Origin: Sphingomonas sp.
GTDB lineage: Bacteria; Pseudomonadota; Alphaproteobacteria; Sphingomonadales; Sphingomonadaceae
DNA length: 64,000 bases
Assembly (NCBI RefSeq): GCF_017304635.1
Contig: NZ_JAFKMA010000004.1
Span: 307,105 to 371,104, forward strand
Direction of reading: 5' to 3'
Both the position numbers and the translations under genes were made by a program. The notes beneath the pieces are model-generated. The model was given only the letters and a program-made list of their open reading frames with translations, was not told where the DNA came from and ran no database searches. Below are positions 31,545 through 53,431 of this stretch, piece by piece (within the stretch, counting starts at the first letter, position 1; every line of letters begins with the position of its first letter).

Positions 31545-32213
31545 TCAGCTCGCGAGTTGCGGGAAGGCGGCCTTGAACGCGGCGACCTTCGGCTTGTCCC
31601 AGTGCACGATGTACGGGTGGTTGGGGTTCTTGTCGTAGAAGTTCTGGTGATACGCCTCGGCCGGGTAGAAGCGGCCCGTCTCCAGCTTGGTCACGATCGG
31701 ACGCGGGAATGACCTCGCCGCGCTCAATTGCGCGATGTATGCGGCCGCGACCGCGCGTTGCGCCGGATTCTGCGGGAAGATCGCCGAGCGGTAGCTGGGG
31801 CCGGTGTCGGGGCCCTGGCGGTTGAGCTGGGTCGGATCGTGCGCGATCGAGAAATAGACGCGGAGCAACGTGCCGTAGCTTACCCGTTTCGGATCGTAGG
31901 TGATGCGGACCGCCTCGGCATGGCCGGTCGTCTCGGTCGAGACGCGGTCGTAGGTGGCATCGCCCGCACCACCCCCGGCATAGCCCGCGGTCACGTTGGT
32001 GACGCCCTTCACCCGCTCGAACACGGCCTCCATCCCCCAGAAGCAGCCGCCGGCGAATACGGCGACATGGGGCTGGTCGGCGGCGGGGACATCGTGCGCG
32101 GGCGCGGCGATCGGCACCGCGCGTTCGGCCGCGGCGGGGGCGCTCGATACCAGGAAGGCGCCAACGGCCAAGGTCGCGGCGGCGGCAGTCAGGGGAACGG
32201 CGAACTTGCTCAT
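31545..32213 (-). CDS. msrA: Exported peptide methionine sulfoxide reductase MsrA
   Basis: 222 aa. Reduces methionine-S-sulfoxide in proteins. The active-site motif AGGCFWGMEAVFERVKGV is intact, followed by GYAGG, TGHAEAVRITYDP and YRSAIF. The N-terminus carries a signal sequence (TAAAATLAVGAFLVSSAPAAAE), so it should work in the periplasm rather than the cytosol. C-terminal AYHQNFYDKNPNHPYIVHWDKPKV is typical. No MsrB is adjacent. Confidence 0.93.
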   Translation of the reverse strand: MSKFAVPLTAAAATLAVGAFLVSSAPAAAERAVPIAAPAHDVPAADQPHVAVFAGGCFWGMEAVFERVKGVTNVTAGYAGGGAGDATYDRVSTETTGHAEAVRITYDPKRVSYGTLLRVYFSIAHDPTQLNRQGPDTGPSYRSAIFPQNPAQRAVAAAYIAQLSAARSFPRPIVTKLETGRFYPAEAYHQNFYDKNPNHPYIVHWDKPKVAAFKAAFPQLAS

Positions 32214-48596: not shown

Positions 48597-50978
48597 TCAA
48601 CTCCGCAGCACCGCGCCGAGTTTCGCGGCCGCCGCGACGATCTTGTCGGCGATCGCCTTCAGTTCGGGCTCGGTGAAGCTCTTGTCGCCGGGTTGCAGCG
48701 TCACGTCGATCGCCATCGACCGGACGTCGTCGCGCTCGAACCGGTCGAACACGCGAGCGGCGGTGATCGCGGCCTTGTCGGCGCCACGTACCGCACGCGT
48801 CAGGGCGTCGGCGGTGAGCTCGGCCGGCACCGTGAAGGCGAAGTCGCGGGTGACGGCTTGCAGCGCCGGCGGGGCGAAAGCGGCGCGCATGAAGCCCGAC
48901 CCCCGCTTCGCCGGGATCGCGTCGAGGTAGAGCTCCACCGCGGCCACCGGTCCGTCGAGGTCGAACGCGCGCAACGTCGCGGGGTGCAGCACGCCGAATG
49001 CCGCCAGTACCGTCTTTGGCCCTAGCCGCAGCGTGCCCGACTGGCCGGGATGCCAGTGATCGGCTGCCCCGTCCGACTCCGGGCCCATCACCTGAAGGTT
49101 GTCGACCGGCGCGCCGGCGGCGGCGAGCAGCGCCAGCGCCTCGGCCTTGGCATCGAACGCGTCGAACGGCGCGGCCTTGCCCGACTGCCAGCCCCGGATG
49201 CGCTTGTCCCCGGCGAGGACGAGGCCGAGCGTCGCGCATTCGTTCGACTGGCCGTCGGCGCCGGCGAAATAGCGCCGGCCGAGCTCGAACAGCCGCACGC
49301 TGCCCGCCCCGCGATGGCGGTTGCGCGCCGCGGCGGACAGCAGCCCTGGCAGCAGCGACGGGCGCATGACCTTGAGTTCCTCGCTGATCGGATTGGCGAG
49401 GCGCCAGGCGCCGCCGCCGAACGCGGCGGCGGCGGGTTCGCTGACGAACGACCACGTCACCGCCTCGTCGATCCCGCGCGCGGCGGCGGCACGGCGCAGC
49501 TTGCGCTCCTGGCGCTGCGCCGCGGTTGCGGTCGGCCGGGCGACGCCGGGCATGCGCGGCAACGGCGTCGACGGCACCTTGTCGATGCCCTCGATCCGGA
49601 TCACTTCCTCGACCAGATCGGCGGGGCCGTCGATATCGCGACGCCAAGTCGGGATCGTCACGCGCCAGTCGCTGTCGACGACAAAGCCCAGTCGCGTCAG
49701 GATGTCGCGCTGGCGATCCGCCGCCACTGCCAGGCCGCCAAGCCGCTCGGCGAGCGCGGTGTCATAGGTGATCGCGCGCGGTTCCAGCGGCGGCTGCCCG
49801 GCGCGCGTCACCCCGCTCGCCGTCCCGCCGCACAAATCGAGCACCAATCGCGTCGCGATCGCGAGTCCCTCGTCGAGGAACGCCGGGTCGACCCCGCGCT
49901 CGAACCGCTGGCGCGCGTCGCTGGTCAGTTGCAGCTTCTGGCCGGTGCGCGCGATATGGTCGGGATCAAACCAGGCGCATTCGATGACGACGTCGGTGGT
50001 CGCGTCGGACACGCCCGATTCCTCGCCGCCCATGATGCCGGCGATGTCGTGGACCTGGGCATCGTCGGCGATCACCGTCATGTCGGGCGACAGCGTGTAG
50101 GTCTTGCCGTTGAGCGCCAGCACCTGTTCGCCCTGCTTCGCCTTGCGCGCGACCAGCCCGCCCTTGAGCTTGGCCTTATCGTAGACGTGCAAGGGCCGGT
50201 CCAGATCGACCGACACGAAATTGGTGATGTCGACCAGCGCCGAGATCGGCTTCTGCCCAATCGCGCGCAGATAACGCGCCATCCACTCGGGCGCCGCGCC
50301 GTTGGTCACGCCACGCACTTCCTGGCCGTAAAAGGCGGGACAGCCAGCGGTGTCGTCGGTCCGCACGTCGGGACCTGCACCCTCGCCCGCCACAGCCGGG
50401 ACATCGAGCGGCCTGAGCGTCCCCAGCCCCGCCGCCGCGAGATCGCGCGCGATGCCGCGCACGCCCATGCAATCCTGGCGGTTGGGCGTGATGCTGACGT
50501 CGATCACCGGGTCGTCGAGATGGGCGTATCGAGCGAACGACGTGCCGACCGGCGCGTCGGCCGGCAGCTCGACGATGCCGTCATGGTCCTCGCCGAGTTC
50601 GAGCTCGCGCGTCGAACACATCATGCCGTTCGATTCGACCCCGCGGATCGCCGACACCTTCAGTTCCATGCCGTTCGCCGGCACCACCGCGCCGGGCAGG
50701 CCGAGCACGCCGACCAGCCCCGCGCGCGCGTTCGGCGCGCCGCACACGACCTGCAACGGCACGCCATCGCCGCGATCGACGCTCAGCACCTGCAGCTTGT
50801 CGGCCTGCGGATGACGCTCGGCAGTCAGCACGCGGGCGACGGTGAAGCCGTCGAGTTTCGCCGCCGGATTGTCGACGCCCTCGACCTCCAGCCCGATCCG
50901 CGTCAGCGTGTCGACGATCGTATCGATCGATGCATCGGTGTCGAGGTGCCGCTTGAGCCAGCTCAACGTGAACTTCAT
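48597..50978 (-). CDS. pheT: Phenylalanine-tRNA ligase beta subunit
   Basis: 793 aa. N-terminal [21 protein letters not shown] and EMAP-like B2 domain ([17 protein letters not shown]), B3/B4 editing region, B5 domain and the C-terminal anticodon-binding FDX-ACB domain ([20 protein letters not shown]). Full length; works with PheS as a heterotetramer. Its ATG overlaps the pheS stop by ATGA, so the pair is translationally coupled. End of the rpmI-rplT-(GIY-YIG)-pheS-pheT unit. Confidence 0.96.
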
Positions 50979-52135
50979 GCCCCGACTCCCCCGCTCAGCG
51001 TGGGCACGTCGAACGCCGAGAACCCGTAATGCTTCAGCCAGCGGACGTCGCCCTCGAACACCGGACGCAGATCGTCGATGCCGTATTTCAGCATCGCCAG
51101 CCGATCGATGCCGCAGCCGAACGCGAAGCCCTGCCACTCCGCCGGGTCGAGCCCGCAGGCGGCGATCACCTTGGGGTGGACCATGCCGCTGCCCAGCACT
51201 TCCATCCAGCCGTCCTGGCCGCCGATTACGCGCTTGCCCTTCTCGATCGAGAAGCCGACATCGACCTCGGCGGAGGGTTCGGTGAACGGGAAATAGCTCG
51301 GGCGCAGCCGCAGCACGACGTCGTCGCGCTCGAAGAAGGCGCGCAGGAACGTCTCCAGCGTCCATTTCAGGTGACCGAGCGTGATTCCCTTGTCGATCAC
51401 CAGCCCCTCGACCTGGTGGAACATCGGCGTGTGCGTCGCGTCCCAGTCGCTGCGATAGACGCGGCCGGGCGCGATGATGCGGATGCCCTCGCCGGCATTC
51501 TGCGTGCGCCGCGCGACTTCGACCATCGTGCGGATCTGCACGGGGGAGGTGTGGGTGCGGAGGACCATCGGCGAGGAATCGAGCCCTGCCGGCGGCGAAC
51601 GAAGCTCGCCGTCCGACGACGGGCTTTGCCCGTCGCCGGCCGCTCTCGGTTCCTCGAGATAAAACGTGTCCTGCATCGCCCGCGCCGGATGCGTGTCCGG
51701 AATATTGAGCGCGGCGAAATTGTGCCAGTCGTCCTCGATCTCCGGCCCGGTCGCGACCGCGAACCCCAGATCGGCGAAGATCTCCGCCAGTTCGTCCATC
51801 ACCTGGCTGACCGGATGCACCGTGCCGGCGGGCGCGAGGTCGGCGGGCAGGGTCATGTCGAGCGTCTCGCTCGCTAGCTTCGCGTCGAGCGCGGCGCGGT
51901 CGAGCTCGGCCTTGCGCGCGGTCAGCGCGGCGGTGACCGCCTCGCGCAGGCCATGGATGCGCGGCCCTTCGACCTGACGCTCCTCGGGGCTCATCGCGCC
52001 GAGCGTCTTGAGCAGACCGGTCACGCTGCCCGACTTGCCGAGCGCGGCGACGCGTACCGCCTCGATCGCCTCCGGCGTCGCCGCCGCGTCGATCTGCGCG
52101 AGCAGGTCGGTCTTCAATTGGTCGAGATTGGTCAC
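50975..52135 (-). CDS. pheS: Phenylalanine-tRNA ligase alpha subunit, with an in-frame palindromic insertion
   Basis: 386 aa. Class II synthetase core with [43 protein letters not shown] (motif 2), [11 protein letters not shown], and the C-terminal [14 protein letters not shown] (motif 3). I set the start at GTG 52135 (VTNLDQLK), which follows TTTAGGGACGAAATC; the ATG at 52156 lies inside a REP repeat. Between DTFYLEE and VLRTHTS there is an extra Gly/Ser/Pro-rich segment of about 25 residues ([20 protein letters not shown]...) that E. coli PheS lacks; its DNA is palindromic (51572-51656). Confidence 0.95.
51572..51656. repeat. Palindromic element inserted in-frame in pheS
   Basis: Outer inverted repeat CGAGGAA (51572-51578) / TTCCTCG (51650-51656). 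Inside are hairpin GGCGA...TCGCC (51594-51610) and a perfect 8-bp stem CGACGGGC-TTT-GCCCGTCG (51617-51635). It encodes the extra segment of PheS. Similar in order and sequence to the block at 9885-9947. Confidence 0.65.
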
Positions 52136-52145
52136 GATTTCGTCC

Positions 52146-52511
52146 CTAAATGTCATTCCCGCGCAGGCGGGAATCCAGCAGCGCTTCTTCTGATGATCGC
52201 AGATCGGCGATAAACGGCGGCAAACCCAGGCCGATCGCCAGATCGTCCCACTGCGGATTGTCCTCTTCGATCAGACGCGCCTTCCAGTCACGGTTCCATT
52301 TTTTCATCTGCTTTTCGCGCGTGATTGCCGCTTCCATCGTATCGGCAACGGCGAACCAGACCAGCCGGACGCAGCCATAGCGCTTGCTGAATCCGTCGAA
52401 CCTGCCTTCGCGGTGCTGTAGGATGCGGCCGACCAGATTCGAGGTGACGCCGATGTAGAGCGTGCCGTGACGGCGGCTGGCCATCATGTAAACGCAGGGC
52501 TGCTTTTCCAT
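52146..52511 (-). CDS. GIY-YIG nuclease-domain protein inside a REP-bounded unit
   Basis: 121 aa. Single GIY-YIG domain: [21 protein letters not shown] (Y8 and YIG at 19-21), arginine in [10 protein letters not shown], and the acidic helix [21 protein letters not shown]. These small UvrC-like or YhbQ-like proteins have no established function. The last residues, [11 protein letters not shown], are encoded by the 27-bp REP repeat at 52152-52178, and the TAG lies just past it. The gene is co-directional with its neighbours rplT and pheS and interrupts their usual junction. Confidence 0.85.
52152..52178. repeat. REP palindrome, left end of GIY-YIG unit
   Basis: 27 bp with palindromic core TTCCCGC-GCAG-GCGGGAA. 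Overlaps the GIY-YIG C-terminus and contains an in-frame ATG upstream of the real pheS start. Confidence 0.85.
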
Positions 52512-52535
52512 CGCTCTCTTCAGGCCGACAAAATT

Positions 52536-52562
52536 CTGGATTCCCGCCTGCGCGGGAATGAC
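52536..52562. repeat. REP palindrome, right end of GIY-YIG unit
   Basis: Exact reverse complement of 52152-52178, located between rplT and the GIY-YIG start. Confidence 0.85.
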
Positions 52563-52632
52563 GGCGTGCTTAACGAAAAGGGCGCCGGTGGCAAACCACC
52601 GACGCCCCGATTTCTTCGCGCGACAGGTCTCT

Positions 52633-52998
52633 TCAGGCGGCCTGGGGCAGCGCCGCCTTCGCCTGCGCGATGATGGCGCTAAACGCTTCGCCTTCGTGCA
52701 TCGCGATGTCCGCGAGCACCTTCCGGTCGAGTTCGACGCCGGCGAGCTTCAGCCCGTGCATGAACTGCGAATAGGTCAGGCCCTCGGCGCGGACGCCGGC
52801 GTTGATGCGCTGGATCCACAGACCCCGGAAGGTCCGCTTCTTCACCTTGCGATCGCGATAGGCGTACTGGCCGGCCTTTTCGACCGCCTGCCGCGCGATG
52901 CGGATGGTGTTCTTGCGACGCCCCGAATAGCCCTTGGCCTGTTCCAGGATGTTCTTGTGCTTGGCGCGGGTGGTTACACCCCGTTTGACGCGTGCCAT
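52633..52998 (-). CDS. rplT: 50S ribosomal protein L20
   Basis: 121 aa. Begins [20 protein letters not shown] and contains [46 protein letters not shown], diagnostic for L20, which binds 23S rRNA during early assembly. Full length. Located 14 bp after rpmI. In E. coli L20 represses its own operon by binding an mRNA leader; no such structure was identified here. Confidence 0.97.
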
Positions 52999-53349: not shown

Positions 53350-53427
53350 GGCGCCGGCCCGCTCCCCCACCCGACCGCCCAGATAGCATATCCTGTGGGC
53401 GGTCGGGTGGGGGAGCGGGCCGGCGCC
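53350..53427. repeat. Long perfect palindrome, copy 2 (32-bp arms)
   Basis: Arms 53350-53381 and 53396-53427 are perfect reverse complements around a 14-nt loop. Compared with copy 1 (32550-32626), arm positions 4 (A to G) and 28 (T to G) differ, each matched by the compensating change in the other arm. Lies 3' of hisN after a short hairpin. Confidence 0.85.
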
Positions 53428-53431
53428 GCCC

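Follow-up and report, generated by a model that had tools for sequence, protein, structure and literature searches.

The question raised by this locus is why a gene for a small GIY-YIG nuclease should lie between two perfect inverted copies of a repetitive extragenic palindromic (REP) sequence, in the gap between rplT and pheS of a Sphingomonas sp. genome (GCF_017304635.1, contig NZ_JAFKMA010000004.1). We analysed a 64,000-nucleotide stretch of this contig, here called the window, together with other genomes of the genus and named homologues from other bacteria. We think it probable that the window unit belongs to a large set of REP-nuclease pairs, in each of which the enzyme would recognize and spread one family of CGTC-type REPs.

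The unit is 411 bp long. Its left REP (52152..52178, plus strand; GTCATTCCCGCGCAGGCGGGAATCCAG) and its right REP (52536..52562, minus strand), both of CGTC type, form arms of 27 nt each that are 100% complementary and 357 nt apart, with their GTC heads pointing outward. The nuclease gene (52146..52511, minus strand, 121 amino acids) is co-directional with rplT and pheS, and the left REP overlaps the 3' end of its open reading frame (ORF), coding for the C-terminal residues DSRLRGND(I). A first-pass annotation of the window had described this arrangement, including the perfect inverted 27-bp repeats and the repeat-encoded C-terminus, and both descriptions are borne out. The 27-mer alone folds into an 8-bp stem with a 4-nt loop (-8.9 kcal/mol with DNA parameters, z -4.4), and none of 200 shuffles folds as well.

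The same palindrome recurs through the 3.18-Mb genome in 26 copies at up to 3 mismatches, against 0 for the reversed, uncomplemented control. We found that 22 of the 26 copies make up 11 plus-then-minus, head-outward pairs. The nuclease pair, with a start-to-start spacing of 384 bp, is the widest of these and the only one with room for a gene of such size, since the remaining ten are spaced 64-129 bp and are too short for it. Chance repeats can be ruled out as an explanation by the perfect arms, the genome counts and the folding score.

The window gene has counterparts in its own genome. Pfam returns six GIY-YIG matches there, five small genes and one 657-amino-acid open frame (L014), which we take to be UvrC. 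All five small genes are enclosed by inverted repeats, of four REP types: T1 (the window gene and a second nuclease, L011), T4, T2 and T3. L011 lies inside a pair of a more distant REP variant that is outside the 26 copies. The repeats around the four non-window genes are GTTCCCCGGCGAAGGCCGGGG; a variant of the window type with a longer shared tail; a CGTCATTGCGAGCG...GCAATCCAGGG dimer on each side; and TCCGTCATGCTGAAC...TTTCAGCATCC. Four of the five repeats are predicted to fold clearly better than their shuffles.

The layout is also common across the genus. We searched 81 genomes and took 118 GIY-YIG loci, a selection from all matches; the 60 that lie away from rplT are the best by Pfam score among the matches listed, and because loci were fetched in that order, weak matches are under-sampled. 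Three loci (L001, L002, L015) were left out as copies of L009. Profiles split the 118 into subfamily A, that of the window gene (68 loci, five of them from the source genome), and subfamily B (50 loci). A REP lies within 350 bp of 66 of the 68 subfamily A genes and on both sides of 43, as the first-pass annotation had suggested a search for REP-flanked relatives might find. By single linkage on either flank, the 68 loci group into 19 distinct sites, with 24 loci at rplT-pheS.

A caveat is that the REP patterns were written after some of these loci had been viewed; the controls were scored with identical patterns. At 55 rplT loci whose gap holds no nuclease, a REP occurs within 350 bp in 6 and on both sides in 0. 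Distance gives the same answer: 107 of 136 flank windows contain a REP at 0-350 bp, compared with 2/132 at 500-850 bp and 5/101 at 850-1200 bp. REP enrichment around the nuclease is thus local. These controls bear on the idea that REPs simply pile up in intergenic gaps, as terminators or stabilizers of mRNA, and surround the nuclease fortuitously. REPs are indeed mostly intergenic according to the passages we draw on from PMC3733652. However, the absence of two-sided REPs from the rplT control and the fall in frequency within a few hundred bases rule out general intergenic clutter, and these results, together with the coupling of REP type to enzyme clade described below, speak against this account as sufficient. 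We regard it as very improbable.

Beyond the genus, a REP of a listed type lies within 350 bp of 72 of 80 named homologues and on both sides of 53. These are the best 80 of 575 confirmed stretches, so the set leans toward close relatives. In the 79 with usable flanks, the same distance bins hold REPs in 121/153 near windows and in 3/150 and 2/146 farther out. The set spans Alpha-, Beta- and Gammaproteobacteria, records titled Deltaproteobacteria, Bacteroidota, Nitrospira, Planctomycetes and Chloroflexota, although most of its non-proteobacterial members are metagenome bins whose taxonomy may be wrong. T1 palindromes adjoin the enzyme in every one of these groups. In Azospirillum lipoferum, the gap between sufB and sufC is occupied by a unit with REP dimers.

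Two other tests proved less useful. Exact inverted-repeat length is too coarse as a sole test, because dimers and mismatches mask many cases: repeats of at least 13 bp flank 37/68 genus loci and also 15/204 mismatched pairs. The cross-phylum version gives 52/80 against a mismatched baseline of 71/400, which is high because distant loci have the same palindrome. Subfamily B was tried as a negative control and failed because it is itself flanked by a different palindrome; 38/50 of its loci have inverted repeats of at least 13 bp, and 34/50 have a listed REP type (24/50 on both sides). The flanking family in L146, L070, L046, L056 and others is often of the CCGTTCG..CTGAGC..GTCGAAGG type. At one common subfamily B site, the nuclease is in several copies fused in an open frame to a SpoU-type methylase (Pfam assignment from L146), with a linker that looks repeat-encoded.

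If enzyme and palindrome form pairs, REP type should follow the enzyme, and it does. When REP type is mapped on the protein tree of 65 genus loci, it changes 8 times, compared with a minimum of 29 and a mean of 37 in 2000 shuffles. This set excludes two untyped loci and a short fragment and treats one T1c locus as T4; the underlying tree, built from few columns, leaves 17 of 62 forks open. Reducing the set to a single locus for each combination of site and type (n = 19) again gives 8 changes, against a shuffle mean of 12.1 (p 0.0012). Pairs of loci at different sites share a REP type in 25/27 cases at 70% protein identity or more, in 82/344 at 60-70%, in 106/1323 at 40-60% and in 1/6 below that. 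REP type therefore tracks protein clade across sites, which indicates that enzyme and palindrome travel together. In the named set, REP type changes 12 times on the protein tree, against a shuffle minimum of 23.

The number of REPs in a genome follows the enzyme as well: where a nuclease clade is present, its cognate REP is more numerous and the REP of the other clade is not. The median count of T1 REPs is 47 in the 15 genomes whose rplT site carries a T1 unit and 1 in 57 others (2 in the 14 genomes with a short rplT-pheS gap), with T1 presence scored at the rplT site only. The 57 comprise 38 genomes measured without a nuclease at rplT and 19 whose gap was unmeasurable; nine T1b genomes were left out. 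For T3 the medians are 8 in 19 genomes with the clade and 0 in 62 without, the positives having been chosen by protein identity plus three from already typed loci, with flanks seen for part of them. Both differences remain after the unit's own copies are removed, and the crossed comparisons are null (p 0.58 and 0.42). Under phylogenetic pairing the signal is weaker, with p 0.03 and 0.016 for T3 and p 1 for the crossed comparisons.

Copy number also helps in weighing the proposal that the flanking REPs are an operator through which the nuclease regulates itself, with the genome-wide copies as decoys or by-products. The upstream REP in the window does lie between a terminator-like hairpin and the start codon, and many relatives have REPs upstream only. 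An operator leaves unexplained both the palindromes downstream of the gene and the genome numbers of the cognate REP, and we find it improbable.

Is the gene a plausible agent? The window protein matches Pfam GIY-YIG with an E value of 6e-15 (55.7 bits, cut-off 22.6), the sole match in the Pfam scan, which gave no HUH tyrosine transposase. Residues Y8, Y19, G21, R29, H33, E66 and N85 are invariant in the window protein and nine relatives, and the conserved Tyr, Arg and Glu presumably have their usual catalytic roles in the GIY-YIG domain. In 13 close pairs of relatives, hand-picked as close, dN/dS is 0.02-0.21, and in these pairs the gene is under purifying selection. Together, the invariant motif and the purifying selection make an active enzyme likely. 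Its nearest solved sequences are PDB 1zg2 (E 1e-7) and 1ywl (E 7e-4). A search with the nuclease matched 33 plasmid records and, in a phage collection, nothing at E 1e-5.

A mobile unit should also be missing from some relatives, and the first-pass annotation had pointed to the rplT-pheS gap as the place to look for an empty site. The gap was measurable in 62 of 81 loci; the other 19, in which no pheS was found next to rplT, were excluded. We found 24 gaps with the nuclease, 14 short gaps of 64-187 bp without it, and 24 with other content. By eye, one of the 14 short gaps (L124) retains a lone REP-like hairpin and two (L026, L123) contain other repeats, while two of the gaps with other content (L016, L121) carry what read as decayed remnants of the nuclease gene. 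On the region tree (61 rows, one more locus having been dropped), the gap changes state 10 times, compared with a shuffle mean of 19. Seven gaps (L019, L021, L117, L120, L038, L090, L106) appear by eye to hold other ORFs, acetyltransferase-like or LysE-like; that of L106 holds a LysE-like ORF plus a REP-nuclease unit. The content of the gap thus changes often.

Two further sites show presence and absence. At the ruvA site, where the source genome has its T3 unit, ruvA was identified in 31 of 33 loci examined and the nuclease in two (the source genome and L169). In L269 and L279 the match to the source genome's downstream gene begins 15 nt and -6 nt past the ruvA stop, and the remaining loci are otherwise arranged. 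On Sphingobium plasmids, 11 of 18 matched records match both sides of a site between fnrL and a response regulator gene, seven with the unit and four without; three of the seven and all four of the latter were aligned. The four unit-less records are 86-91% identical over the matched parts. Two of them (TYG64, TYG74) retain a single hairpin that looks like a hybrid, its left half matching that of the left REP and its right half that of the right REP; the other two have neither nuclease gene nor REP. The hybrid hairpin is explicable by deletion across the large hairpin, so these records document loss and not its agent. Given the unit-less alleles at all three sites and the REP-flanked homologues, neither half of the outcome that would have spoken against the first-pass reading, a unit fixed in relatives and homologues without REPs, was found.

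These alleles bring in the strongest competing explanation, in which the nuclease lives within REP dimers and recognizes REPs to serve the host, for instance by resolving their hairpins or by restricting how far DNA that carries REPs is taken up or recombined. Selection on recognition would then keep the pairing, while the REPs would spread through another enzyme or by replication slippage. Constraint on the gene in the 13 close pairs fits this account, as do the unit's presence in 24 of the 62 rplT-pheS gaps measured and the reported modulation of natural transformation by the Neisseria relative, and the TYG64 and TYG74 hairpins are explained by deletion across the large hairpin. However, unrelated sites harbor related enzymes that share a REP type (68 loci, 19 sites), which means that unit and REP reach new places together, and REP numbers follow enzyme clade. 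We judge residence to be rather unlikely, and clearly less so than either the operator or the fortuitous account.

Taken together, the observed layout, its recurrence, the coupling of enzyme clade to REP type and copy number, the presence/absence alleles and the constraint in the tested pairs favor a nuclease that spreads its REPs. We propose that the small GIY-YIG nuclease recognizes one family of CGTC-tagged palindromes, namely the inverted copies bounding its own gene plus the scattered short inverted dimers. The REP hairpin would be cut while single-stranded, for example in the lagging-strand template during replication or in incoming DNA during transformation. REPs could then be copied to new places when the break is repaired or the freed hairpin-ended piece is captured, with host repair rejoining the DNA, and the gene-bearing dimer would occasionally be copied as well. 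On this view, the gene-bearing dimer would act autonomously and the short dimers would depend on it. A broader version, to which we give about even credence, is that small GIY-YIG nucleases are the dedicated enzymes of CGTC-tagged REPs generally and that such pairs are selfish and homing-like across the named-set groups, with specificity and REP co-diversifying and the enzyme driving REP spread through breaks in single-stranded DNA; subfamily B would pair with another palindrome, with SpoU-type fusions in places.

Several points weigh against the proposal that the enzyme spreads its REPs. We infer that the enzyme recognizes its target, cuts it and brings about movement, and the first-pass idea of a REP-mobilizing unit stands in its layout, type-clade coupling and unit-less alleles, with movement by the nuclease as its inferred part. 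Transposition was not observed in the allele comparisons at rplT-pheS, ruvA or the Sphingobium plasmids. A clean target-site duplication was not found, and the allele boundaries at rplT-pheS and on the Sphingobium plasmids fail to align cleanly; the first-pass annotation had likewise reported no duplication, and none is definable here. Simple deletion mediated by the palindromes could account for the losses seen. GIY-YIG enzymes are also not known to rejoin DNA, so host repair has to be assumed.

Other difficulties lie in the comparative data. REPs are absent from one or both sides in 25 of the 68 genus loci, several of which have an upstream dimer alone, and the T2 repeat around L012 folds no better than its shuffles (z +0.5, 134/200 as good). 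Phylogenetic pairing, with the T1 trait taken as any rplT-site nuclease, T1 or T1b (24/61), weakens the T1 association to p 0.03 at thresholds of 3 and 5, 0.125 at 10 and 0.22 at 20. Among the 62 genomes in which no T3-clade gene was counted, 12 have at least three T3-like REPs, with 148 in G016, 74 in G009 (mostly a two-base variant) and 46 in G037; in G016, a related nuclease gene carries an in-frame stop. The protein tree of the named set follows taxonomic class too (22 changes, shuffle minimum 31), and all 15 of its T3 loci are from Alphaproteobacteria; common descent may therefore account for part of the fit of REP type in that set.

The surroundings of the window unit add some detail. 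Upstream, rplT (52633..52998, minus strand) is followed at its 3' end by a terminator-like, GC-rich hairpin with a T run (52576..52608, minus strand), recognized by eye. The same hairpin was seen by eye at alleles without the unit, which places the unit just downstream of it. Downstream, pheS (50975..52135, minus strand) has a GTG start at 52135 that is, by eye, also the start in relatives. The left REP supplies an in-frame ATG at 52156 (52154-52156), 7 codons upstream of that GTG, giving the longest pheS ORF, and annotation of pheS may extend into the REP. A third exact GTCATTCCCGC of the window lies at 31703-31713 on the minus strand, where the remainder of the 27-mer is absent within 3 mismatches. 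Beyond the ribosomal protein genes, at about 53350-53430, inspection by eye shows a long, near-perfect inverted repeat that differs in kind from the REPs.

REPs are common bacterial repeats, and an enzyme for each REP family would make their origin and spread testable. The enzyme-target pairs offer material for studying how GIY-YIG enzymes read hairpins, and might include sequence-specific cutters of single-stranded DNA whose targets could be predicted from the flanking palindrome. Among the papers listed, literature searches found none that joins GIY-YIG genes with REPs. In the parts of PMC9465073 and PMC10928387 covered, words for both are present with no link drawn, and the covered part of the RepRanger paper (PMC12306157) has neither "nuclease" nor "GIY".

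The closest comparison for the repeats themselves is with the CGTC-1 REPs of Di Nocera et al. (2013; PMC3733652), as set out in the passages we draw on. The window REP fits their description, with an 8-bp stem, a 4-nt loop, a CCA tail and head-outward dimers. It also has the features given for CGTC REPs generally, an 8-9 bp stem, a 4-5 nt loop, a CGTC (or TGTC/CCTC) head and a CCA-like tail; GTC is preceded by T in the left copy (TGTC) and by C in the right (CGTC). Those passages report no tyrosine transposase gene flanked by CGTC repeats, leave CGTC REPs without a dedicated enzyme, and equate the CGTC-1 repeats of Neisseria with dRS3. Hypothetical proteins below 120 amino acids were excluded from the intragenic count in that study, a size class into which many of the nucleases here, with a domain of about 95 amino acids, would fall. 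Our analysis makes the small GIY-YIG family the best candidate for the dedicated enzyme of CGTC REPs and suggests it as the missing partner through which a very common class of bacterial repeat spreads.

The enzymes themselves can be set beside three known groups. Among solved proteins the nearest are small GIY-YIG proteins of UPF0213 type (the two PDB entries above), yet they are distant. Ssn proteins are probably closer: they are reportedly site-specific nucleases for single-stranded DNA in the GIY-YIG superfamily, described in 2025, with a Neisseria repeat, NTS, as target, and the Neisseria relative is reported to modulate natural transformation. The Neisseria gonorrhoeae homologue, presumably the Ssn gene, is likewise a small GIY-YIG enzyme, 63% identical to the window protein over 88 amino acids, and lies among T1-type REPs (L234). 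If Ssn is as reported, the first-pass description of the unit as possibly uncharacterized was not quite right. What the present analysis brings to this comparison is the REP-bounded unit, the clade-REP coupling, the cognate copy numbers and the unit-less alleles, with cutting proposed for the window enzyme. For GTAG REPs, the enzymes are the REP-associated tyrosine transposases (RAYTs), and the RAYT/REPtron system resembles the window unit in having an enzyme gene within inverted REPs, further copies of which, including short REP dimers (REPINs), are present in the rest of the genome. The two differ in their parts: the RAYT/REPtron system combines an HUH/tyrosine transposase with GTAG-tagged REPs, whereas the window unit combines a GIY-YIG nuclease with CGTC-tagged REPs.
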